This document shows, in pieces, positions 8,708-34,055 of a stretch of 36,136 bases of DNA; position 1 is the first letter of the stretch, and the number at the start of each line of letters is the position of its first letter. The stretch lies in IMG/VR virus record IMGVR_UViG_3300050821_017205, positions 1 to 36,136 of that record. One strand, given 5' to 3'. The notes under the pieces were generated by a model. The model was not told where the DNA came from. It ran no database searches and saw nothing but the letters and a program-made list of their open reading frames with translations. The translations under genes were made by a program, and so were the position numbers. Source of the DNA: a virus.

Positions 8708-8781
8708 TGGCTGCCTCGGATGGAATCGAACCATCAACTGTCGGTTAACAGCCGACTGCATGACCCTCATGCTACAAGGCA
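8708..8781 (-). tRNA. tRNA-Asn (anticodon GUU)
   Basis: Read on the - strand, a full cloverleaf: acceptor TGCCTTG with CGAGGCA, D-stem GCAT with ATGC, anticodon stem GTCGG with CCGAC around loop CTGTTAA, T-stem GATGG with CCATC around TTCGATT, discriminator G and an encoded CCA end. The anticodon GTT and G73 fit tRNA-Asn. The D-loop is short (7 bases). It starts 3 bases after the stop of the methyltransferase on the same strand, so the two probably share a transcript. Confidence 0.92.
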
Positions 8782-8784
8782 ACG

Positions 8785-9456
8785 TCAATACATTTTATTA
8801 TAAAACTCGGTTTGGACAAATATGAGGTTTGCCTGCATTCGGCAATAAGTGAAATAGCCCTTACTTGTCATAAGCGCCTTTGTCGGCTCAGCCTTCCAAG
8901 GCCTTATCTCAGAACAGACAACTTTTGGCTTACTTGAACTAAAGTCACAAGACTCGAGAACTTCATGGTCAAAACCTTCTATGTCTGTGAGCAAAAGATC
9001 GGGCCAAATGTTTTTACAATATTCTTTTAAAATCTCGTCGATTGTTTTCACTTCTATTTGCAACACTTCTTTGATCTGAAGAGAGGGGTCGTGATTTTTC
9101 AGCCAATTAACTTCATCAAGGGAAAAAGTATTAATGCCAGAGCCCTTGTTCCACATATAAAATGGCATGACACCTTTTTTAGCTCCAACCCCACAATTAA
9201 CGTTTATATCCTCTGGCCGATGCTCATGAAAAGCAGGCATGAGGCTTGGGTTAGCTTCAACATTAACTCCCCTTGAGCCCCTTAAATAAAGAAGAGCCGT
9301 ATTTGATATGGTCATAGGCGAGTGAGCGCCCAAGTCTAGATAGCTTGGCTTCCCGATCCCTAAGAGTTGAAAGATATTTACGAGCATTAAATCATCGCCG
9401 TGTTGGGCGTAGGTTTCGGTTCCCCATGGTTGTTCGTTTTTTCTCCATTCGGTCAT
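8785..9456 (-). CDS. FkbM-type SAM-dependent methyltransferase
   Basis: 223 residues. The SAM-binding start YLDLGAHSP (near 40), the acidic GVNVEANPSL and the family's DLLLTDIEGFDHEVLES are visible, as in FkbM methyltransferases that O-methylate sugars or small molecules. It overlaps the upstream glycosyltransferase as ATGA, so the two form an operon, with tRNA-Asn just downstream. The pair lies opposite to the surrounding structural genes. Likely job, by inference: modifying a surface glycan of host or virion. The exact acceptor cannot be told. Confidence 0.87.
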   Translation of the reverse strand: MTEWRKNEQPWGTETYAQHGDDLMLVNIFQLLGIGKPSYLDLGAHSPMTISNTALLYLRGSRGVNVEANPSLMPAFHEHRPEDINVNCGVGAKKGVMPFYMWNKGSGINTFSLDEVNWLKNHDPSLQIKEVLQIEVKTIDEILKEYCKNIWPDLLLTDIEGFDHEVLESCDFSSSKPKVVCSEIRPWKAEPTKALMTSKGYFTYCRMQANLIFVQTEFYNKMY

Positions 9457-10487
9457 AATATACTCTCCGCGGCTTGGAATACTTGTTCTGGGCTAATCTC
9501 GTCCATGCATTTGGGACTCATATAACCAATAGGACATTTGTCGTTCCAATTATCTTTAACTCCATAACAGGCTTCTTTACAGACAGAAGATTTAAGATTG
9601 ATGTTTTGAGAATAGCCGTAAAAATCAACAGGAGTTGGTCCCCACAAGACTATACATGGAACTTCCATGCGAGTTGCCCCATGAACAAGGCCCGAATCGC
9701 CGTCTATGTGAAGAGCTGATTTTGATAAAATATCAAAGCACTCGCTAATTGAGGTTTTATTGATCAAGCAAGAGTCAACACCGTCTATCTCACGTGATGT
9801 TTTTGAGCCAAGTTGAATGATCTTATAGTCTGGATATTTTTTCTTAAGCATTTTAACCAAACTATTCCAATGCTCCCATTTCCAGGTTTTTGTGGCTCTT
9901 CCAGAAACAATACTGGCGTTATAAACATCAAACCCGTCATGAACGGTTATGTATTTTTCAGGAATATTATTGGGCAAAAATTCATATTTTAAAGGTTCTT
10001 CGTAGCCTAAAGAATAAAGAGGGAAGGACCATCTGTTTTGTCCCATTTCTTTGGCAAAATAGGCGATTAGGAAAAACTTGTTGAAGTGACTTTTTAGGAT
10101 GGTTTCTAATCTAGGATGTTTTTTGAGGAAATCTTGTTGTTGTAAACATAGATTATCATGGTTTTTAATCAAAAACCCATGAAAGTAGTTCATCTGATGA
10201 AATTTGACGAAAGTATTGAACTCTAGCTTCCAGGTATAGTCTGGCATTTCTTTAAACACAGAGATTGGATCCCTGTAGAAGTATTTAAAAGCTTCTACAT
10301 GATAGGTATAGACTACTAGGTTAAATCTCTTCTGTAAGAATTTAATAGCATCGGTACTTATGATTATATCCCCAACGCCACCAGTTAAATGAATGGGCAA
10401 AAACGTTGGATCACTGGGGCTTGTATGCCTGATGTTTCTAAACTGCTCTATCTGAGGAGACATTAACGATTCTAGAAATTGATGCAT
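9453..10487 (-). CDS. GT9-family glycosyltransferase (heptosyltransferase-like)
   Basis: 344 residues from ATG 10487; in-frame GTG 10508 and ATG 10463 are alternatives, none with a clear ribosome-binding site. The N-terminal GGVGDIIISTDAIKFLQKRF and the C-terminal ALHIDGDSGLVHGA and PCIVLWGPTPVDFYG are hallmarks of family GT9, which includes ADP-heptose:LPS heptosyltransferases. Such enzymes build LPS core or related glycans in the cytoplasm. The C terminus has five Cys, possibly a small metal site. Coupled by ATGA to the methyltransferase. Probably acquired cargo that alters the host surface glycan; a virion-glycosylating role is the alternative. Confidence 0.87.
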   Translation of the reverse strand: MHQFLESLMSPQIEQFRNIRHTSPSDPTFLPIHLTGGVGDIIISTDAIKFLQKRFNLVVYTYHVEAFKYFYRDPISVFKEMPDYTWKLEFNTFVKFHQMNYFHGFLIKNHDNLCLQQQDFLKKHPRLETILKSHFNKFFLIAYFAKEMGQNRWSFPLYSLGYEEPLKYEFLPNNIPEKYITVHDGFDVYNASIVSGRATKTWKWEHWNSLVKMLKKKYPDYKIIQLGSKTSREIDGVDSCLINKTSISECFDILSKSALHIDGDSGLVHGATRMEVPCIVLWGPTPVDFYGYSQNINLKSSVCKEACYGVKDNWNDKCPIGYMSPKCMDEISPEQVFQAAESIL

Positions 10488-10510
10488 AATCTTAAGAAAA
10501 ATACACACGG

Positions 10511-14928: not shown

Positions 14929-17900
14929 ATGCAATCAATCTCACCTCAGCCTGTAACTATAAACTTCACTCAAGGCGTAAATCTAAAAACAGATCCGTGG
15001 CAGGTTCCATTGGGTCAATTCTTAGCTCTAGAAAATAGCGTATTTACAATTCAGGGGTTACTTAAAAAAAGAAACGGTTACGGCTTACTCGCAACGATAA
15101 CCGGAGCCTCGACGATCACAACATATTTGGGTAATTTGCTAGCTCTAGGAACGGAGTTGACCGTTTTCTCGGAAGAGTCAAATAGTCTTATAGCCGCGGG
15201 CGCTATTCAACCAATGGCCCTTAGCGTTTTGCCTTTAGTAAGGTCAGCCACATCTCAGACGACGGTGGACGTTGCGATTGCGCCAAACGGTTTATCATGT
15301 GAGACATGGTTAGATTCAGATGGGAACACTTATTATCAAATAAACGATTCAGCTACCGGTGGAACGATAGTTCCTAAGGTGGCCATAACAAACGGCACTG
15401 ACGTTAATGCCACGATGTCGAGAGTTGTTGTTCTGGGTAATTATTTTATTATTACCTACCTCGCAACAGTTTCAAGTAACGCAACTATTAGGTATCTCGC
15501 CATTCCATACGGGAACCCGACGTCTCCGTTGCCTCGAGTTTCAGTCTCGACTGCCATAACCGGCATTGCTGCGGCCTATGACGCCTTAAGCGTTAGCATA
15601 AACGCAGGGATTTTGTATCTAGCCTGGGAAGACTCGGGAGTTATTAAGCTAACTCAAATAAGTAATACGTTAGTTTTAGGAGCGGTCGTTACTTTGTCCT
15701 CCGCCGGAGCAGATCTTATTTCTCTAGCGTTTGACCTGACTAGAAATCAGTTATGGGTGTCTTTTTATAAACTGAGTTCAAATACTATTAAAGTAGCAGC
15801 CTATGATTCTCATTTGTCTTCCATTCTAGCGATCACGTCGATTGTCACATCCATTACTTTAAACAACGGCCTTACCTCGACCGCTACGGGCGGAGTTGTC
15901 AGTGTTTTCTACGAAGTAAGCAATACTTACTCTTATGACTCGACGCTTAGGACTGATTATTTATCTTTCAATACTTGCACAATAGGTGGAACAGCCGGAA
16001 CTCCCGCTATTATTTTAAGAAGTGTTGGTCTTTCAAGCAAAGCTGTTCTAGTCAACGGCACCTCCTATATGCTTGTGACCTATAGTTCCGCTTATCAACC
16101 GACATATTTTTTAATAAATCAAACTGGTAAAATTTTAGGGAAGCTCGCTTATTCAAATGGTGGCGGGTATATAATTAATCAGATTCTACCTCAGATTAAT
16201 TTGTCCCAAGACTCAAATAGTAATCCGATATTTAAAATCGGATATTTATTTAAGGACTTCTTAGCTAGCATTGCAAACCCTCAAGGGCCAATGGCTTTAA
16301 ACGTCGGGACCAATAAAACAATGGGAGCAAGCGCTCCACCCGTTTACGCTCAGACGGGTATTAATATTGTCTCCTGGACGTTCAATGCTCCGGCGCGAAG
16401 TGCCGAGACGGGCCAAATACTTCATGTGGGTATGGGCTTTCCGGTCATGTTTGATGGTGTAGCTCCTGTTGAGCATCAATTTCATATTTGGCCAGATGCT
16501 TTAGAGGTTGCGACTGCAAATAGTGCTGGCGGACTTTTAGCTCAGCAATATTTTTATCAGGGCATTTACAATTGGACTGACGGACAAGGCAACCAACAAT
16601 TTAGTGCGCCCAGTGTTGCTATTTCAGTTACTGCGGCGGCTGGCACGTTAACGTTTCATTCTGTGTTTTCATCAGGCGACACTACATTAACTGTGAGTTC
16701 TGTCTCTGGTCTCTTTGTTGGTCAGATTATAACTGATACAACGACCGCCGGAAACATAACCGCAAATACTAAAATCATCGCTATTAGCGGGAGCACGATC
16801 ACCCTTAGTCAACCCGCGGCTGGGAGCTCTACAACGACCCCGGGTGACGCTCTTAATACGGTTAATACAGCTACAAATACGGTTTATTTCCCAACGCTAA
16901 GACTGACCGATAAAACAGCCAATAAAGTGAGACTCAATCTTTATCGCTGGTCGCAGGCTAATCAGAACTTTTATGAAGTGACTTCAGTCTCAAGCCCAAC
17001 GCTTAATAACCCAGCTGTTGACTATGTAACTATTACAGACACTCTAAATGACGTCTCTATTGTCGGGAACAGTCTGCTTTATACGACGGGCGGAGTGGTT
17101 GAAGATATAGCGGCTCCTTCATTTTCTGTCTGCACGATGTTTGACGACAGGCTTTGGGTCTTAAGTGCCGAGGACGGTCTATTTTGGTATTCAAAGCAGG
17201 TTTTACCAGGAACGGGCGTTGAATTTAGTAACCTGTTTACTTACTACGCTGCTCCCATCCAAGGAGCTCAAGGGTCGACGGGCCTTCCGACGGCAGCATG
17301 TCCCATGGATACAGAACTCCTCATCTTTAAGAAAGAGGCCATAAGCTATGTCAATGGGACCGGGCCCGATAATACTGGAGCTGGCTCAACCTATTCGGCA
17401 ACTCCAAATTATATTAGCTCAACCGTTGGTTGTACAAACCCCGACAGTATTGTTCAGACCGACCAAGGGGTTATGTTTCAGAGTGACAAGGGTATTTGGA
17501 TGGTCACTCGTGGTCTTGGTTTAGAATACATTGGCCAAGCCGTTGAGGGTCTAGTTATTGGCAATGTTGTATTATCGGCATCGGTTATTCCCGAAACAAC
17601 CCAAGTAAGGTTCATCATGAATACGGGAATAACTCTCATGTATGATTATTTTTATAAACAGTGGGGATGGTTCACGAATACGCCTGGCGTTTCAGCTACT
17701 CTCTATCAGGGGCTTCATACCTACCTTGATAAATATAGTAGGGTTTTGCAGGAAACTCCTGACGAATATCTAGACGTGGCAACTCCCGTGGTTATGTATG
17801 CTTTGACAAACTGGATTCAACTTCAGGGGTTATCTGGTTACCAGAGATTACTGGAAGTTCAACTCTTAGGCAAATACATCTCGCCACATACATTAAATGT

Positions 17901-18216
17901 TGAGCTTGGATACGATTTTGGGTCTTTATCAGAACAGGCGACTATTGAGCCTATAAATGGAACAGGTAATTACGGGACCGACGATTTATTTGCTCAAACC
18001 TCTCCTTATGCAGGACCTGGAAATTTAGAACAATGGAGAATCCAGCAATCAACGCAACAATGTCAAAGCTTCCAAATGTCTATTCAAGAGGTCTTTGATC
18101 CGAGTCAGGGAATGCCGGCCGGAGCCGGATTGACTCTCTCAGCCTTTACAGCAATTATTGGTGTAACAAGAGCTTACAGACCAATCAAAGCAGCTACAAG
18201 CGTGGGGACAAATTAA
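14929..18216 (+). CDS. Large tail protein, possible nozzle/stabilisation protein
   Basis: 1095 residues, the largest product. The N terminus (VTINFTQGVNLKTDPWQVPL, then NSVFTIQGLLKKRNGY) and the long run of repeated beta segments recall tail-nozzle or packaged-DNA stabilisation proteins, which are beta-propellers closing the portal channel in podoviruses. Residues about 570-645 hold an inserted module (FSSGDTTLTVSSVSGLFVGQ...ISGSTITLSQ) related to the one at residues 55-121 of the protein encoded at 10623. The assignment comes from size, order and N-terminal pattern, so it stays tentative. Starts 3 bases after the previous stop. Confidence 0.78.
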   Translation: MQSISPQPVTINFTQGVNLKTDPWQVPLGQFLALENSVFTIQGLLKKRNGYGLLATITGASTITTYLGNLLALGTELTVFSEESNSLIAAGAIQPMALSVLPLVRSATSQTTVDVAIAPNGLSCETWLDSDGNTYYQINDSATGGTIVPKVAITNGTDVNATMSRVVVLGNYFIITYLATVSSNATIRYLAIPYGNPTSPLPRVSVSTAITGIAAAYDALSVSINAGILYLAWEDSGVIKLTQISNTLVLGAVVTLSSAGADLISLAFDLTRNQLWVSFYKLSSNTIKVAAYDSHLSSILAITSIVTSITLNNGLTSTATGGVVSVFYEVSNTYSYDSTLRTDYLSFNTCTIGGTAGTPAIILRSVGLSSKAVLVNGTSYMLVTYSSAYQPTYFLINQTGKILGKLAYSNGGGYIINQILPQINLSQDSNSNPIFKIGYLFKDFLASIANPQGPMALNVGTNKTMGASAPPVYAQTGINIVSWTFNAPARSAETGQILHVGMGFPVMFDGVAPVEHQFHIWPDALEVATANSAGGLLAQQYFYQGIYNWTDGQGNQQFSAPSVAISVTAAAGTLTFHSVFSSGDTTLTVSSVSGLFVGQIITDTTTAGNITANTKIIAISGSTITLSQPAAGSSTTTPGDALNTVNTATNTVYFPTLRLTDKTANKVRLNLYRWSQANQNFYEVTSVSSPTLNNPAVDYVTITDTLNDVSIVGNSLLYTTGGVVEDIAAPSFSVCTMFDDRLWVLSAEDGLFWYSKQVLPGTGVEFSNLFTYYAAPIQGAQGSTGLPTAACPMDTELLIFKKEAISYVNGTGPDNTGAGSTYSATPNYISSTVGCTNPDSIVQTDQGVMFQSDKGIWMVTRGLGLEYIGQAVEGLVIGNVVLSASVIPETTQVRFIMNTGITLMYDYFYKQWGWFTNTPGVSATLYQGLHTYLDKYSRVLQETPDEYLDVATPVVMYALTNWIQLQGLSGYQRLLEVQLLGKYISPHTLNVELGYDFGSLSEQATIEPINGTGNYGTDDLFAQTSPYAGPGNLEQWRIQQSTQQCQSFQMSIQEVFDPSQGMPAGAGLTLSAFTAIIGVTRAYRPIKAATSVGTN

Positions 18217-18217
18217 A

Positions 18218-19933
18218 ATGGATAGTACAAAAGCTCGTAAATTTAATCAAAAAATGGGCAGGCCAAAATATTCCAAGGGCGGATATATAAAAAAGCTCGG
18301 TAACAGGCAATATTTCGACGCCGGTGGTATTGCTCAAAATATAGCCCCGGGAGCTGCGGTCACGGGAAATCCCACGAATACAAATGGGAGCGGTGTCGGG
18401 GGAATAAGTAATTTACTTGGGTTAAATGCTCAGTCAGCAAACCTAACTCAAGGAACCAGTCCTGCTCAGTTAAATGCCGCTTATGAAAATTCTAATAACG
18501 CTCTTAATGCTCAAGTAGGGCTGACGAATACATTAACTCCCCAAGCTCAAACCGGGGTGAATGCCCAGAATCAAATTTTAGGTCAAGAATTGGGTATTGC
18601 TAGTGGAACGGGACCAAACCCAGCGCTTGCTCAATTAGCCCAAACAACCGGACAAAACGTTAACCAAGAAGCAGCCCTTTTAGCCGGTCAAAGAGGAGCT
18701 GGAGCAAACCCGGGCCTCGCAGCTAGAAACATTGCAACGGCTGGCACGCAGGCTGAACAACAGGCGGCCGGTGAGGGCGCCACATTAGCCGCGCAACAAG
18801 AAATTGCAGCTCAAAACAATGCTGCAAATCTAGCGGGAACAGAAATCGGACAAACGCAAAATGCTACAACAGCTCTCAATACCGGGCAGCAAAATGAGCA
18901 AAATATTTTGCAGGGGGCAAATTCTAATTACAACAATACTGCCGCCGGCATGCAGTCAAATATTAACAGTGTTAACGCACAAAACAATAGAGGCATTCTG
19001 GGCGGCATTACTTCTGGACTTTCCAGTCTAACCGGAGGCCTTTTTGAAAAGGGTGGAGAAGTCGGCAAAGATGGGGAAATACCAAAGGTCCCAGCTCATG
19101 CAAAGCATAAATTAGATTTCGTTCATAAGATGACTAAAATGGGTTTGGATCATTTCGATAGCGGCGGAGCTATTAGTGCTAACCCATTAGTTGGAGCTAT
19201 CACAAATAATGGAATGGCTTCTCAGCCACAAGGTCCTGGTTATACTCAGGTGGCGCCAGTCGCGGCCGCGAGTATTGCCCAGCCATCGCAAGAATCAGGA
19301 CCCACCCTTGCGGACGAAGCGGCTAAAGGATTTAAATCTGGGCAGGCGTGGAAAACCAATAGGCAAACAAAGCTTGGGACGTCTGAAGACTCAACAGATG
19401 CAGCGATTACAGGGTCCAATAATCCATTAGTTTTGAACAAACAGGCAACTGCAATGCCTGTCTCATCTGATAACTCTAGCTTTATTGACCCAAATGATAC
19501 GACGGCGACCATCACTCAAGGTGATAGCGGTTATCAAAATGCCGCCCATGGTGGAACTATTTGGGATATGCACCCTTCTCAACACGCTCAAATATCCGCC
19601 AATCATTTCAATAATTACTTTGGCGGTGGTGAGACTAAAAAAGTAGAAGCCATGGTTTCGCCGGGCGAACGATATTGGAACCCCGAAGAAGTCGAAATGA
19701 TAAAGCATGGGGCAGACCCAATGAAGGTTGGCAAAGTTATCCCTGGTAAAGATAAAGTTCCTGGCAAAGATTCTTTAAAAAACGACACGGTTCCAGCAAC
19801 TTTAGAAGAGGGTGGTGTAGTAAATCCGTTACATGTAGAGAAAACTAAGAATTCGGATAAGGCTCGTCTTTTTGTTTTGAAATCTCTTAGAGCAACTGGG
19901 AAGCATATGAAAAAACCTCAGGGGATGAAATAA
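18218..19933 (+). CDS. Low-complexity virion protein with double-glycine motifs
   Basis: 571 residues, rich in Ala, Gln, Asn and Gly. The N terminus has YSKGGYIKKLGNRQYFDAGG; the middle is a Gln/Asn/Ala helical repeat-like region (about 60-260); later come FEKGGEV, FDSGGAI and a C-terminal block with VSPGERYWNPEEV, IPGKDKVPGKDSLKNDTVPA and LEEGGVV. SPGE...DSxxNDxVPAxLxEGG blocks recur in many phage virion proteins whose role is not settled. An internal or ejected protein is plausible. Its TAA shares a base with the next ATG. Confidence 0.8.
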   Translation: MDSTKARKFNQKMGRPKYSKGGYIKKLGNRQYFDAGGIAQNIAPGAAVTGNPTNTNGSGVGGISNLLGLNAQSANLTQGTSPAQLNAAYENSNNALNAQVGLTNTLTPQAQTGVNAQNQILGQELGIASGTGPNPALAQLAQTTGQNVNQEAALLAGQRGAGANPGLAARNIATAGTQAEQQAAGEGATLAAQQEIAAQNNAANLAGTEIGQTQNATTALNTGQQNEQNILQGANSNYNNTAAGMQSNINSVNAQNNRGILGGITSGLSSLTGGLFEKGGEVGKDGEIPKVPAHAKHKLDFVHKMTKMGLDHFDSGGAISANPLVGAITNNGMASQPQGPGYTQVAPVAAASIAQPSQESGPTLADEAAKGFKSGQAWKTNRQTKLGTSEDSTDAAITGSNNPLVLNKQATAMPVSSDNSSFIDPNDTTATITQGDSGYQNAAHGGTIWDMHPSQHAQISANHFNNYFGGGETKKVEAMVSPGERYWNPEEVEMIKHGADPMKVGKVIPGKDKVPGKDSLKNDTVPATLEEGGVVNPLHVEKTKNSDKARLFVLKSLRATGKHMKKPQGMK

Positions 19934-27967: not shown

Positions 27968-28442
27968 ATTTTAGAATAAAGATCTCTAATTTATTTTTAT
28001 CCCCCACAAGGCGTCTTGATAGATCAAAGGAGTCTATTTGAGTATCGTCATCAATGATTAAGGCTTTAGTCAAGGTGTCACTTGGAAGCTCTAAAAGGTT
28101 TGAAAGATCTGGAAGACGTTTTGAGATAGTGTTTTTAAGCGTGTAATAGGCCTCTCTTTGAAAGATGAAGTGGTAGATGACCCAAAGCCTCTCTTTAATG
28201 GGTTCTTTTAAACCTTGGGCTATTTTAGCCATTTTAAGCTGGGTTATTAAATGACTCTCAGCACTGACTAACCGTTTATCTTTGCCTAGGAACCTGCGGC
28301 CAGTGCCTTGGTTCATGAAAATGGGTCTGTTGTTCTTTTTTGTCACATGTTGTGGGACGTCTATTGAGGCATAAAAGAGGAGCTTATCAATTGAGAACTT
28401 TTGCTGAATTCTAGCTTTAAGAGCGTCTAACAGATCAGCCAT
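27957..28442 (-). CDS. RusA-like Holliday-junction resolvase
   Basis: 161 residues. TKKNNRPIFMN with TGRR (35-50), the conserved RLPDLSNLLELPSDTLTKAL (109-128, acidic D112 and D122) and IIDDDTQID (129-137) give the acidic pattern of RusA-type endonucleases, which cut four-way junctions in replication and recombination. First gene of a - strand operon. ATG 28442 has no evident ribosome-binding site. It is somewhat longer than E. coli RusA at the N terminus. With the Cas4-like nuclease and SSB it makes up the recombination equipment of the genome. Confidence 0.82.
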   Translation of the reverse strand: MADLLDALKARIQQKFSIDKLLFYASIDVPQHVTKKNNRPIFMNQGTGRRFLGKDKRLVSAESHLITQLKMAKIAQGLKEPIKERLWVIYHFIFQREAYYTLKNTISKRLPDLSNLLELPSDTLTKALIIDDDTQIDSFDLSRRLVGDKNKLEIFILKYEP

Positions 28443-28499
28443 TTAAAGAACCCCATACGAACTCCCTTACCCCCATGAGATCGGCATATCAACGGGTAT

Positions 28500-28527
28500 T
28501 TGCCAGGAGGACAAGCACTAGTTTAAA
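28500..28527 (+). promoter_or_regulatory. Candidate promoter for a short + strand RNA
   Basis: TTGCCA (28500-28505), 16 bases, then TTTAAA (28522-28527). It is offered only because an RNA-like run of hairpins and a strong terminator follow within 180 bases and no gene lies between. Confidence 0.25.
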
Positions 28528-28534
28528 ACCGACC

Positions 28535-28706
28535 CCAATCCTTTAATTGAATCCATACGGGGCTCTAAGCCTGAGTAGAGCACAAATACTAGACTTATCC
28601 ACATTTAGAATTGGTACGAATAAAGGGGTAAGCTCACTGTTACCTCCATTGATGGGGATATCGATATGTTCCCGGAGCCCCCATTCGTTGTGAGTGGGGG
28701 TTTTTT
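28535..28706 (+). ncRNA. Candidate small RNA with its own terminator
   Basis: Between the divergent gene sets, on the + strand, three hairpins follow one another: GCTCTA/TAGAGC (28562-28567 with 28576-28581), GGTAA/TTACC (28627-28631 with 28640-28644) and a GGG...CCC arm around ATATCGATAT (28655-28673). A 9-bp terminator closes the run. No coding frame of note occupies it. The 5' end is a guess. It could also be the leader of a read-through transcript. Confidence 0.45.
28678..28706 (+). terminator. Intrinsic terminator, + strand
   Basis: CCCCCATTC (28678-28686) pairs with GAGTGGGGG (28692-28700), 9 bp with one T-G pair, loop GTTGT, then TTTTTT. No T run on the other strand. Confidence 0.88.
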
Positions 28707-28710
28707 AAAA

Positions 28711-28849
28711 GTGCGGGCCGGGCTTGATACCGGCTTCTAACCCAATGCTTGCATTACTCAAGTTCGGACCTCTTTCATGCATCGAGAATCGAACTCGATA
28801 GTCCCAAAGGTTCCGGGCCGATGGAGCGTGTCCTTCCACACCGCCGCAC
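28711..28849 (-). ncRNA. tRNA-like multi-hairpin element, possibly degenerate tRNA
   Basis: The ends close as GTGCGG/CCGCAC (28711-28716 with 28844-28849). Inside are GCCGG/CCGGC (28717-28721 with 28730-28734), ATCGAG/CTCGAT (28781-28786 with 28794-28799) and GTGT/ACAC (28828-28831 with 28838-28841). Read on the - strand, the 28781-28799 arm has the T-loop TTCGATT and the GTGT arm resembles a D-arm, but no standard anticodon arm and acceptor combine within 76 bases. A decayed or interrupted tRNA, or a different structured RNA, is possible. Confidence 0.4.
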
Positions 28850-28861
28850 CTATTGATCTCT

Positions 28862-28923
28862 AAAAAAACAAAACTCCCAAATCTTTTCAGTTGACCCTAT
28901 TGAGACTTGAGAGTTAGTTTTGT
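28862..28923 (-). terminator. Candidate terminator, - strand
   Basis: Read on the - strand, ACAAAACT (28923-28916) pairs with AGTTTTGT (28875-28868) and leads into a run of seven T. The loop is long (40 bases), so efficiency is doubtful. It would end the micro-gene 28897-28959. Confidence 0.4.
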
Positions 28924-28959
28924 ATCCGCTTTACTTGATACAGGTCGATAATTAATCAT
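28897..28959 (-). CDS. 20-residue micro-protein (candidate)
   Basis: On the - strand, AGGAGGA stands 7 bases before ATG 28959, the best ribosome-binding site in the region, and a 20-codon frame (MINYRPVSSKADTKLTLKSQ) ends at TAG 28897-28899. A T-tract hairpin follows. The product is polar and basic. Without homologues it cannot be told from a chance frame behind a good Shine-Dalgarno sequence; a leader peptide is an alternative. Confidence 0.4.
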   Translation of the reverse strand: MINYRPVSSKADTKLTLKSQ

Positions 28960-29071
28960 TTCAAATCCTCCTGTCAAGAATAAGCAAAATAAAAAAGTGG
29001 AAACATGTCAGTGCCACTCTAAAAACACATGACGGATACGCCTTAAGCCGGTTAGTAACCGAGAGGTTCGT

Positions 29072-29257
29072 TTGAAGCCTAAAAGGCAGGATAGAATTAA
29101 ATATCGATGTGATGTTTGTGGAAAATTTAGAAAAAAGTCATTTCTAACTTTTATTCACATTCCGGATTCTCATTTTGGGCCAGAAGAAAGCTATTGGGAA
29201 TGCAGGGTTCATATCACTAAGAGAAAAAATGAAATTAAGCTTCAAACGCGAATATAG
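29072..29257 (+). CDS. Small zinc-finger-like protein
   Basis: 61 residues from TTG 29072 with GAGAGG 6 to 11 bases upstream. Basic start, CDVCGKF (C14, C17) and, 30 residues on, WECRVH, so a Cys-Cys...Cys-His metal site is likely; the C terminus is again basic. It opens the + strand run of early-type genes. DNA-binding regulation is plausible, not shown. Confidence 0.6.
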   Translation: MKPKRQDRIKYRCDVCGKFRKKSFLTFIHIPDSHFGPEESYWECRVHITKRKNEIKLQTRI

Positions 29258-29268
29258 GCACGAAACAT

Positions 29269-29418
29269 GACTCATAACCTAGGGCATCGTAGGACGCCTG
29301 AGTCTCACAGATCTTAGAATGGCCATGGAGGCTGAACGTAGATCTAGGGAAACCATGGGGAAGGGGTGAGTAAGCCACAAGAAGTACAACTGGATTAAAT
29401 CAGTTTCACTTTCTGTGG
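29269..29418 (+). ncRNA. Structured leader: three successive hairpins
   Basis: In the gap before the gene at 29444: GACTCA/TGAGTC (29269-29274 with 29299-29304); AGATCT/AGATCT (29309-29314 with 29340-29345) holding GGCC/GGCT; and a long stem at 29375-29418 in which CCACA pairs with TGTGG, GAAGT with the ACTTTC region and AACTG with CAGTT around loop GATTAAAT. The last one ends 13 bases before the ribosome-binding site. It could be a 5' regulator of the next gene or part of a larger RNA. Confidence 0.5.
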
Positions 29419-29443
29419 CGTGTTGTTATCGGGAAGGACAAAG

Positions 29444-29614
29444 ATGATAAAATGTCAGGATTGTGGAGTAGATATACATCCAGAAGCATTTCATACAGGA
29501 CATGAGAAATGGTGTGAAGATTGTTTCGATAAAGGTCTTTGCAAAGATATGAATGATCACTGGAATCCTTATTGGGAACAAGAGCTGACAATAAATATCA
29601 TCGAAGAGACGTAA
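29444..29614 (+). CDS. Small Cys-rich zinc-ribbon protein
   Basis: 56 residues from ATG 29444, chosen because GGAAGGA ends 6 bases upstream; GTG 29420 in frame lies in the leader hairpin. Two Cys pairs, CQDC (4-7) and CEDC, and a third Cys in KGLC with nearby His (IHPEAFHTGH) give a plausible zinc-ribbon. It is flanked by structured non-coding sequence on both sides. The function is unknown. Confidence 0.65.
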   Translation: MIKCQDCGVDIHPEAFHTGHEKWCEDCFDKGLCKDMNDHWNPYWEQELTINIIEET

Positions 29615-29623
29615 TGAGTATGG

Positions 29624-29837
29624 GAGTTCTGACAGGACTCACCTCACTGTCAGTGTAACTCTGGGTTGTACGAGGGAAAGATATTGACTGCTTGATAGAG
29701 CCGTTACCCGAGACTATGTCGGGATGAAGCCAGGTACCAGACAGTCAGATGCCATAGTATCCCTCGTAGAGACCAGAGGCTCCTCGTGAAGTCTCTTGAA
29801 GTCGACACCTTTATCTACTGGGTTGTAACTACAGTAG
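29624..29837 (+). ncRNA. Candidate structured RNA with four or more helices
   Basis: Helix 1: GAGTTCTGACAG (29624-29635) with CTGTCAG-TGT-AACTC (29647-29661), 12 bp with a 3-base bulge. Helix 2: TACGAGGGA (29669-29677) with TCCCTCGTA (29760-29768), 9 bp perfect, enclosing TGACTG/CAGTCA (29685-29690 with 29742-29747) and CCCGA/TCGGG (29707-29711 with 29719-29723). Helix 3: GAGAC/GTCTC (29769-29773 with 29791-29795). Helix 4: CTACTG/CAGTAG (29815-29820 with 29832-29837). No open frame over 40 codons lies across it and no known RNA class matches that I can name. Strand is assumed from the flanking genes. Confidence 0.6.
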
Positions 29838-29949
29838 TAGGGAATGAGGTTAGTGTATCAATTGGTTAAACTTAGCTCAGAAACAAGATGCATGCGTATT
29901 CAGTATTATAGCTCTAGTGTTATTGTTTAGATGGTGGCGTGATAGGTAA
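29838..29949. other. Non-coding tail of the 335-base gap
   Basis: Between the last helix and the gene at 29950 I find no convincing gene, promoter or terminator. It is A/T-rich, with GTATTCAGTATTATAGCTCT as a possible but weak promoter-like stretch for the next gene. Confidence 0.3.
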
Positions 29950-30087
29950 ATGCCTAGACAATTTATTTGGAAACGTAAAGTAACACCATTGCCTGTAAAG
30001 AAGCTTTGTATTATTTGTTTCAAAGAATTGCCAAAAGAGAGATACGAGATCAAGAAATGCAAGGAGTGTGAGGGATGTGAGAAGTGA
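29950..30087 (+). CDS. 45-residue zinc-ribbon micro-protein
   Basis: Starts at ATG 29950 (AGG close upstream) and overlaps the next GTG as GTGA. Very basic start (RQFIWKRKV), then CIIC and, 19 residues on, CKECEGCE: two Cys pairs as in a zinc ribbon. Short, but Cys spacing and the overlap support it. Confidence 0.62.
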   Translation: MPRQFIWKRKVTPLPVKKLCIICFKELPKERYEIKKCKECEGCEK

Positions 30088-30272
30088 AAAAACCTAAACC
30101 ATTAATCGTATCTAACAATGGTGAGAACAAAATCATGATAGTTGTTAATTGGCATCCTGATCCTGATGGAGGGCCCGCTATTCATGATTACACAGCTTCC
30201 TTGTTACCTGGACAGAAAATAGATTTATCAATGTTTGGTATTGTGTTGGAGGAAGACAGTGAAGTTCTTTAA
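30084..30272 (+). CDS. Hypothetical 62-residue early protein
   Basis: GTG 30084 follows GAGGGATG and overlaps the preceding stop. The sequence has a beta-like core (KIMIVVNWHPDPDGGPAIHD) and ends LEEDSEVL. I do not recognise it. The 3' end overlaps the next gene by 14 bases. Confidence 0.65.
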   Translation: MKKPKPLIVSNNGENKIMIVVNWHPDPDGGPAIHDYTASLLPGQKIDLSMFGIVLEEDSEVL

Positions 30273-32124: not shown

Positions 32125-32160
32125 TTAAACCTCTGTGACGAGTTTTAATTGGATAATGAG

Positions 32161-32198
32161 ACGCGCACGTAAGAAATTACTTGCGCGTTTTGTTTTTT
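32161..32198 (+). terminator. Intrinsic terminator with GAAA loop
   Basis: ACGCGCACGTAA (32161-32172) pairs with TTACTTGCGCGT (32177-32188), 11 of 12 bases, closed by a GAAA tetraloop and followed by TTTGTTTTTT. It separates the early small-gene run from the nuclease-SSB unit. Confidence 0.92.
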
Positions 32199-32250
32199 AA
32201 TAATAAAAACCATGACATCCAATTAACTTCTCTAACACCAAGGGGTTTTA

Positions 32251-33873: not shown

Positions 33874-34055
33874 AAGTTCGCTATAAAATCCACTATATAG
33901 TTCCTGATAAGCTCGTTTACATTTACCTTTTGATCAGGGTACTCCTTCTTGAGAAGAGATATTGTTTTCATGAGTTGGACCTTTAATTCTGGATCAACCC
34001 TTATTGTGATTTTTGCCATTTCTTTTTTTTTCGTGAAAATTATCTTTTTCCCCAT
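33870..34055 (-). CDS. Ribbon-helix-helix DNA-binding protein
   Basis: 61 residues from ATG 34055, preceded by AGGAGA at 8 bases. After a basic leader, MAKITIRVDPELKVQLMKTI and VNVNELIRNYIVDF give the beta strand and two helices of the RHH (Arc/MetJ) fold. A start at Met13 (34019) is possible, but has no site. Arc-type repressors bind operators as dimers; this one probably regulates a phage promoter, perhaps its own. Last gene of a four-gene - strand operon. Confidence 0.82.
   Translation of the reverse strand: MGKKIIFTKKKEMAKITIRVDPELKVQLMKTISLLKKEYPDQKVNVNELIRNYIVDFIANF

Follow-up and report, generated by a model that had tools for sequence, protein, structure and literature searches.

In phages, structured spacers that are cut by nucleases or protect against them play an ordinary role, established for T7 and lambda, and RNase III processing sites are known in the early messages of T7-type phages. 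In packaging RNAs of the phi29 type, a closing helix leads into a three-way junction with two arms. For lambda, RNase III sites in the N leader and in cIII appear in the reference list of PMC5371410, and the same list includes the sib element, through which int is retroregulated by RNase III (reference 18 there). Structured 3' UTR elements have been described in bacteria, with phage precedent (PMC2864571).

Here we analysed a gene-free gap in the early region of a 36,136-base virus record, which was taken at its full length and is referred to as the window. As with RNase III processing sites on early phage transcripts, the structure in the gap would place long imperfect duplex arms between small co-directional early genes, but it would be a 202-nt three-way junction and so exceed a single hairpin in size. 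As in lambda sib and the 3' UTR elements, it starts at the very end of the upstream gene, and by analogy it could conceivably control that gene; unlike sib, it has no integrase beside it. Its layout and overall size are broadly reminiscent of the phi29-type packaging RNA, whereas it has no Rfam match at E ≤ 10 and the large terminase of the window is of an ordinary type. Structured RNAs of the same phage group also include the HNH-bearing group I introns that lie in the capsid gene of two relatives (L063 and L053), but these sit elsewhere in the genome, interrupt a gene and score with RF00028, none of which applies to the gap element. We tentatively read positions 29601–29802, with less than even confidence, as a structured element between two cistrons of the rightward early mRNA, perhaps a processing or stability site of the RNase III type, and a fortuitous fold is nearly as likely.

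Gene context and architecture of the gap

The large terminase is 62–78% identical to those of IMG/VR relatives and less than 60% identical to those of named phages (best, 37%), and its search in cellular genomes gave only matches of 29–34% identity. Structural genes occupy 1.6–26.7 kb of the window and are followed by a leftward operon at 26.9–28.4 kb (genes from 28442 down to ~26900), the first gene of which encodes a RusA-like resolvase. After this operon come the rightward early genes, which include many tiny ORFs as well as genes for a Cas4-type exonuclease and an SSB-like protein. The gap is indeed 335 bases long, since the upstream ORF ends at 29614 and the next begins at 29950. Each of the two flanking ORFs has a start and a stop codon of its own, they have no family match in common, and Pfam gave no match above the cut-off for the upstream 56-aa ORF.

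The preliminary description had reported the gap to be free of a significant open frame, and no ORF of at least 40 codons was found within it; the longest stop-to-stop stretch is 56 codons. A decayed gene was rejected, as the open pieces in six frames had no Pfam or phage (tblastn) matches. The accompanying argument that phages seldom leave 335 bases geneless is weak, because this genome has a longer, mostly non-coding stretch at 28443–29101. The absence of a gene, the position of the structure and its pairing potential are direct observations.

A multi-helix RNA had been proposed for the 214 bases at 29624–29837. The stems as such are present, whereas the boundaries and the last two stems did not hold. 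The 12-bp bulged stem (GAGUU-CUGACAG/CUGUCAG-AACUC, 29624–29661) was found again and is weak when taken alone, being matched by 34 of 500 shuffles. The perfect 9-bp stem UACGAGGGA/UCCCUCGUA (29669–29677/29760–29768) encloses CCCGA/UCGGG and UGACUG/CAGUCA, as proposed. However, the 214-base segment reached only z −0.91 on the + strand (a value attained by 30 of 200 shuffles), and the two 3'-most stems were equalled by 220 and 64 of 500 shuffles, which is chance level.

Wider folding moved the boundary. AAGAGAC/GUCUCUU closes a three-way junction, so that the unit becomes 29601–29802, 202 nt in length (Table 1). This closing helix (29604–29610/29791–29797) had been overlooked, as had the outer helix CUCUGG/CCAGAG (29659–29664/29773–29778), which extends the 9-bp stem; the duplex of the long arm thereby consists of 6 and 9 bp helices with a 4×4 loop between them. 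None of 200 shuffles was as good as the closed unit on the + strand, and none of 500 on either strand was as good as the long arm at 29659–29778 (z −4.19 on +, −5.25 on −), although the boundaries of 29601–29802 were picked after inspection and the z-scores are inflated by this choice. The closing helix contains a 3×3 internal loop, GUA/GAA, which on the + strand may resemble a submotif of the loop-E type. In addition, the apical loop of CCCGA-GACUAUG-UCGGG may pair with a complement in the long arm (ACUAUG/CAUAGU), forming a candidate loop-to-arm pseudoknot for which we estimate a chance match at roughly 2%.

Table 1. Coordinates of the gap element and of the features beside it in the window
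Feature	Position	Strand	Basis or score
Closed unit: closing helix, three-way junction, two arms	29601–29802	drawn as +, following early genes	z −3.64 (+), −3.06 (−), inflated by choice of boundaries
P1 5' strand AAGAGAC, within last codons of upstream ORF; partner 29791–29797	29604–29610	+	inverted repeat, MFE
P1 3' strand GUCUCUU	29791–29797	+	inverted repeat, MFE
P2 hairpin CUGACAG...CUGUCAG, 7 bp, portion of the 12-bp bulged stem	29629–29653	+	fold
Long arm: CUCUGG/CCAGAG, 4×4 internal loop, UACGAGGGA/UCCCUCGUA, UGACUG/CAGUCA, CCCGA/UCGGG	29659–29778	both scored	inverted repeat and shuffles
Apical-loop ACUAUG	29713–29718	+	six-base complement at 29753–29758, read from sequence
CAUAGU, candidate pseudoknot partner of apical loop	29753–29758	+	read from sequence
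Upstream 56-aa ORF (MIKCQDCGVD...), two CxxC pairs	29444–29614	+	GGAAGGA precedes; stop codon at P1 internal loop
Downstream 45-aa ORF with CxxC motifs	29950–30087	+	
Hairpin GCCACA...TGTGGC with internal loops, just 5' of 56-aa ORF	29374–29419	both scored	z −2.77 (+), −5.09 (−) for 29360–29425

Two further candidates at the locus were set aside. The direct repeat CTGGGTTGTA at 29661 and 29818, considered as a target-site duplication, comes without terminal inverted repeats. The sequence AAGCCAGGUACC is perhaps similar to a cobalamin-like box, for which Rfam gave no support.

Calibration of the fold and choice of strand

A windowed z-score scan was run on the whole record and on ten block-shuffled copies. 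Of the folds on the respective strands, the + fold ranked 20th (z −3.87) and the − fold 4th (z −5.13). Per 36-kb strand, the shuffled genomes yielded 11 folds at z ≤ −3.87, of which 3.2 were at least 150 nt long, and 0.7 folds at z ≤ −5.12, of which 0.2 were long; the latter value equals about 0.002 for a 335-base gap. For this single gap the fold is beyond chance, above all on the − strand, and genome-wide it is borderline. Stability alone would not single it out from the whole genome.

These values bear on the reading of the gap as a spacer without RNA function, in which the inverted repeats arose by accident or are relics, and the search for folds is what brought this one to notice. We give this reading nearly the same tentative weight as the intercistronic element. 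The 20th rank of the + fold, the about three equally good long folds in shuffled genomes, the z of −0.91 for the segment as first delimited and the lack of a homologue in any search all speak for it. However, a long fold such as that on the − strand is rare in shuffled sequence (0.2 per 36-kb strand, about 0.002 for the gap), and several of the adjoining non-coding stretches are unusually structured too. Across the window, folds at z ≤ −4.3 fell in non-coding stretches in 5 of 10 cases on + and in 4 of 10 on −, against a non-coding share of 9.8% (p = 0.0015 and 0.012, respectively, by binomial test), where the count includes true terminators (32126–32249 holds one) and the non-coding share is slightly overlarge owing to the omission of some leftward small ORFs near 34 kb.

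The Watson–Crick helices are common to both strands. On the − strand, additional G·U pairs form in the inner part of the long arm, and on the + strand additional U·G pairs form in the closing helix, so a consistent strand signature is absent, and the sole reason for preferring + is the rightward direction of the neighbouring genes. As the + fold is ordinary and the − fold rarer, the sequence does not tell which strand carries an RNA. The − fold would suit a leftward small RNA or leader within a putative structured leader region of the RusA operon, with the long arm as a rod-like hairpin, which we regard as unlikely. The z of the unit is better on this strand (−5.13, 4th), where 28439–28574 (−5.08) and 29302–29508 (−4.35) also fold, all of them upstream of leftward genes; the inner helices gain G·U pairs there, and a TTGACA/AATTAT site reads leftward at 28977–28948. 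However, such an RNA would lie antisense to two small rightward genes that are themselves plausible, the G·U pairs gained in other parts of the unit are on + and leave the strand signature inconsistent, and promoter matches were not above chance, the promoter scan having shown no enrichment (2 found versus 3.9 expected).

The repeats might instead act as DNA, as the inverted repeats of a replication origin, as a regulatory site or as a site of protein binding in the stretch 28443–29949, which is divergent and poor in genes, an explanation to which we give little credence. It is consistent with the several inverted repeats found where the RusA operon and the early genes diverge, with the GC skew that climbs sharply from this region, and with the folding of the strand as DNA (z −3.07). 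On the other side, iterons or repeated boxes were not clearly beyond chance, and a skew step is ordinary where gene direction changes.

Searches for relatives and possible role

The structure had been left without an RNA class, and the comparison with Rfam 15 agrees. No family was found for the gap at the gathering score or at E ≤ 10 except for nonsense, namely four matches near the gap to eukaryotic families (E 2.9–8.9). The search had some power, because its relaxed mode flagged the diverged group I intron of a relative (E = 0.02). The sole Rfam match at the gathering score in the window was a tRNA at 8711–8781.

A self-splicing intron, or another known ribozyme or riboswitch, was considered because the major capsid gene of relatives carries group I-like introns with HNH genes; the ACUAUG/CAUAGU pairing is also loosely like a P7 helix. 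We find this highly improbable. RF00028 gave no match at E ≤ 10 in 29380–30150, whereas a search of the same type gave E 0.02 for the intron of the relative, and this absence together with the same-tool positive control rules against a group I intron at the gap. In addition, the helix order does not fit P3/P7/P8, and the flanking ORFs look complete, hence no gene is interrupted.

Blastn found no DNA match to the gap among phages or plasmids, and 27 complete records of relatives gave none either. Likewise, tblastn of the eleven small early ORFs, concatenated, found no relatives in the collections searched, and peptide seeds taken from the exonuclease, from the 56-aa ORF and from the early ORFs gave none in scans of viral contigs (IMG/VR). 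The SSB-like protein is the only early protein with a relative, a distant one of 29% identity in L047. When viral contigs were searched with DNA seeds, the apical hairpin gave one chance match without the flanking helices and the loop plus its partner gave none; seeds from the two longest unpaired stretches gave 16 and 57 loci, none with the structure according to the covariance model R1. Over about 1.5 Mb, relatives included, R1 recovered the window only, and being built from a single sequence it reaches only fairly close relatives, so that distant ones could escape. As none of these searches found a homologue, the proposed conservation of the RNA has no related copy to support it, and the sequence is compatible with a working RNA as well as with a fortuitous fold.

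For 29601–29802 we infer transcription, strand, nuclease and effect. If the segment is an intercistronic element of the early mRNA, the ribosome would leave the 56-aa ORF and the transcript would then close the helix that begins in the last codons of that ORF. The closed transcript would form the three-way junction and show a long arm, with its 6 and 9 bp helices stacked, and a short arm. Most likely, the element would be recognised by a host double-strand-specific nuclease of the RNase III type or would block exonucleases, and the early message would be cut or stabilised between two tiny genes.

The intercistronic element is supported by the location of the unit between two same-strand small ORFs, the overlap of the closing helix with the end of the first, and the second long hairpin that flanks the 56-aa ORF on its 5' side. 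The z-scores of the fold, the enrichment of strong folds in non-coding stretches and the lack of a coding relic point the same way. Counting against it are the + fold, which is ordinary genome-wide, the more significant folding of the − strand and the lack of a homologue. The scans also speak against it, with no terminator-like site in the region and no enrichment of promoters.

A more far-reaching proposal is a new phage RNA of ~200 nt in which a closing helix leads to a three-way junction and a loop pairs with an arm as a pseudoknot. Such an RNA would be made early and would act in trans on the host or switch the expression of the small zinc-ribbon-like genes beside it, in a lineage without a close relative found for this early region; we deem it improbable. 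If real, the element would extend by one the structured RNAs from the early regions of uncultured phages, regions of which little is known, with an exact 202-nt segment defined. If not, it would be a clean case of a plausible multi-stem drawing of a gap that fails a calibrated genome-wide test.

Other structured RNAs and genes in the window and its relatives

In the relatives G014 and G019, the major capsid gene contains structured RNAs together with HNH genes. This gene is split by HNH-carrying group I-like introns at L063:18765–18981 (−) and at L053 about 17898–18441 (−), with different insertion points, and the L063 intron scored 20.8 bits against RF00028 (E 0.02), below the Rfam cut-off.

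An unannotated RNA of ~115 nt is common to three relatives (L049:11284–11403, −; L057:16809–16928, −; L053:241–360, +). It consists of a bulged hairpin with apical AGAUAUUCU, followed by a covarying terminator hairpin and a U-run, and lies on the strand opposite the terminase, a short distance upstream of tRNA-Asn in L057 and, in L049 and L053, in the neighbourhood of this tRNA gene. RNAalifold showed two-sided changes in 7 of 39 pairs from three sequences, with some other pairs broken, and no Rfam match was obtained at the gathering score. By eye, this RNA does not resemble the gap element. It is a lead and not proof, and is better supported than the gap element. A well conserved multi-hairpin RNA with a GUAGAAUCAUAACCGUGGC core was also observed at L057:1755–1955 (+) and L053:15965–16150 (−), between an HNH ORF, which it directly follows, and a structural gene, and is possibly the 3' part of another intron.

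Within the window, the top + strand fold (32126–32249, z −6.2) lies just before the exonuclease gene and contains a GC-rich terminator and then a T-run, nested in the inverted repeat TTAATTGGAT...ATCCAATTAA. On the − strand, 28439–28574 is a long structured stretch (z −5.1) directly upstream of the RusA gene; its G·U pairs favour the leftward strand, and it is a possible structured leader. A tRNA-like T-arm (ATCGAGTTCGATTCTCGAT) lies in a non-coding stretch at 28770–28855 (−), where neither ARAGORN nor Rfam called a tRNA. Just past the capsid gene and tRNA-Asn, two leftward ORFs at 8785–10508 (−) read by eye like an FkbM-type methyltransferase and a heptosyltransferase-like glycosyltransferase, with no PHROGs match. 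An intrinsic terminator, CCCCCATTCGTTGTGAGTGGGGGTTTTTT, is present at 28680–28706 (+), with a loop that exceeds the limit of the scan tool. Finally, a small leftward ORF at ~33900–34050 (−), reading MAKITIRVDPELKVQLMKTISLLKKEYPDQK..., looks by eye like a ribbon-helix-helix regulator.
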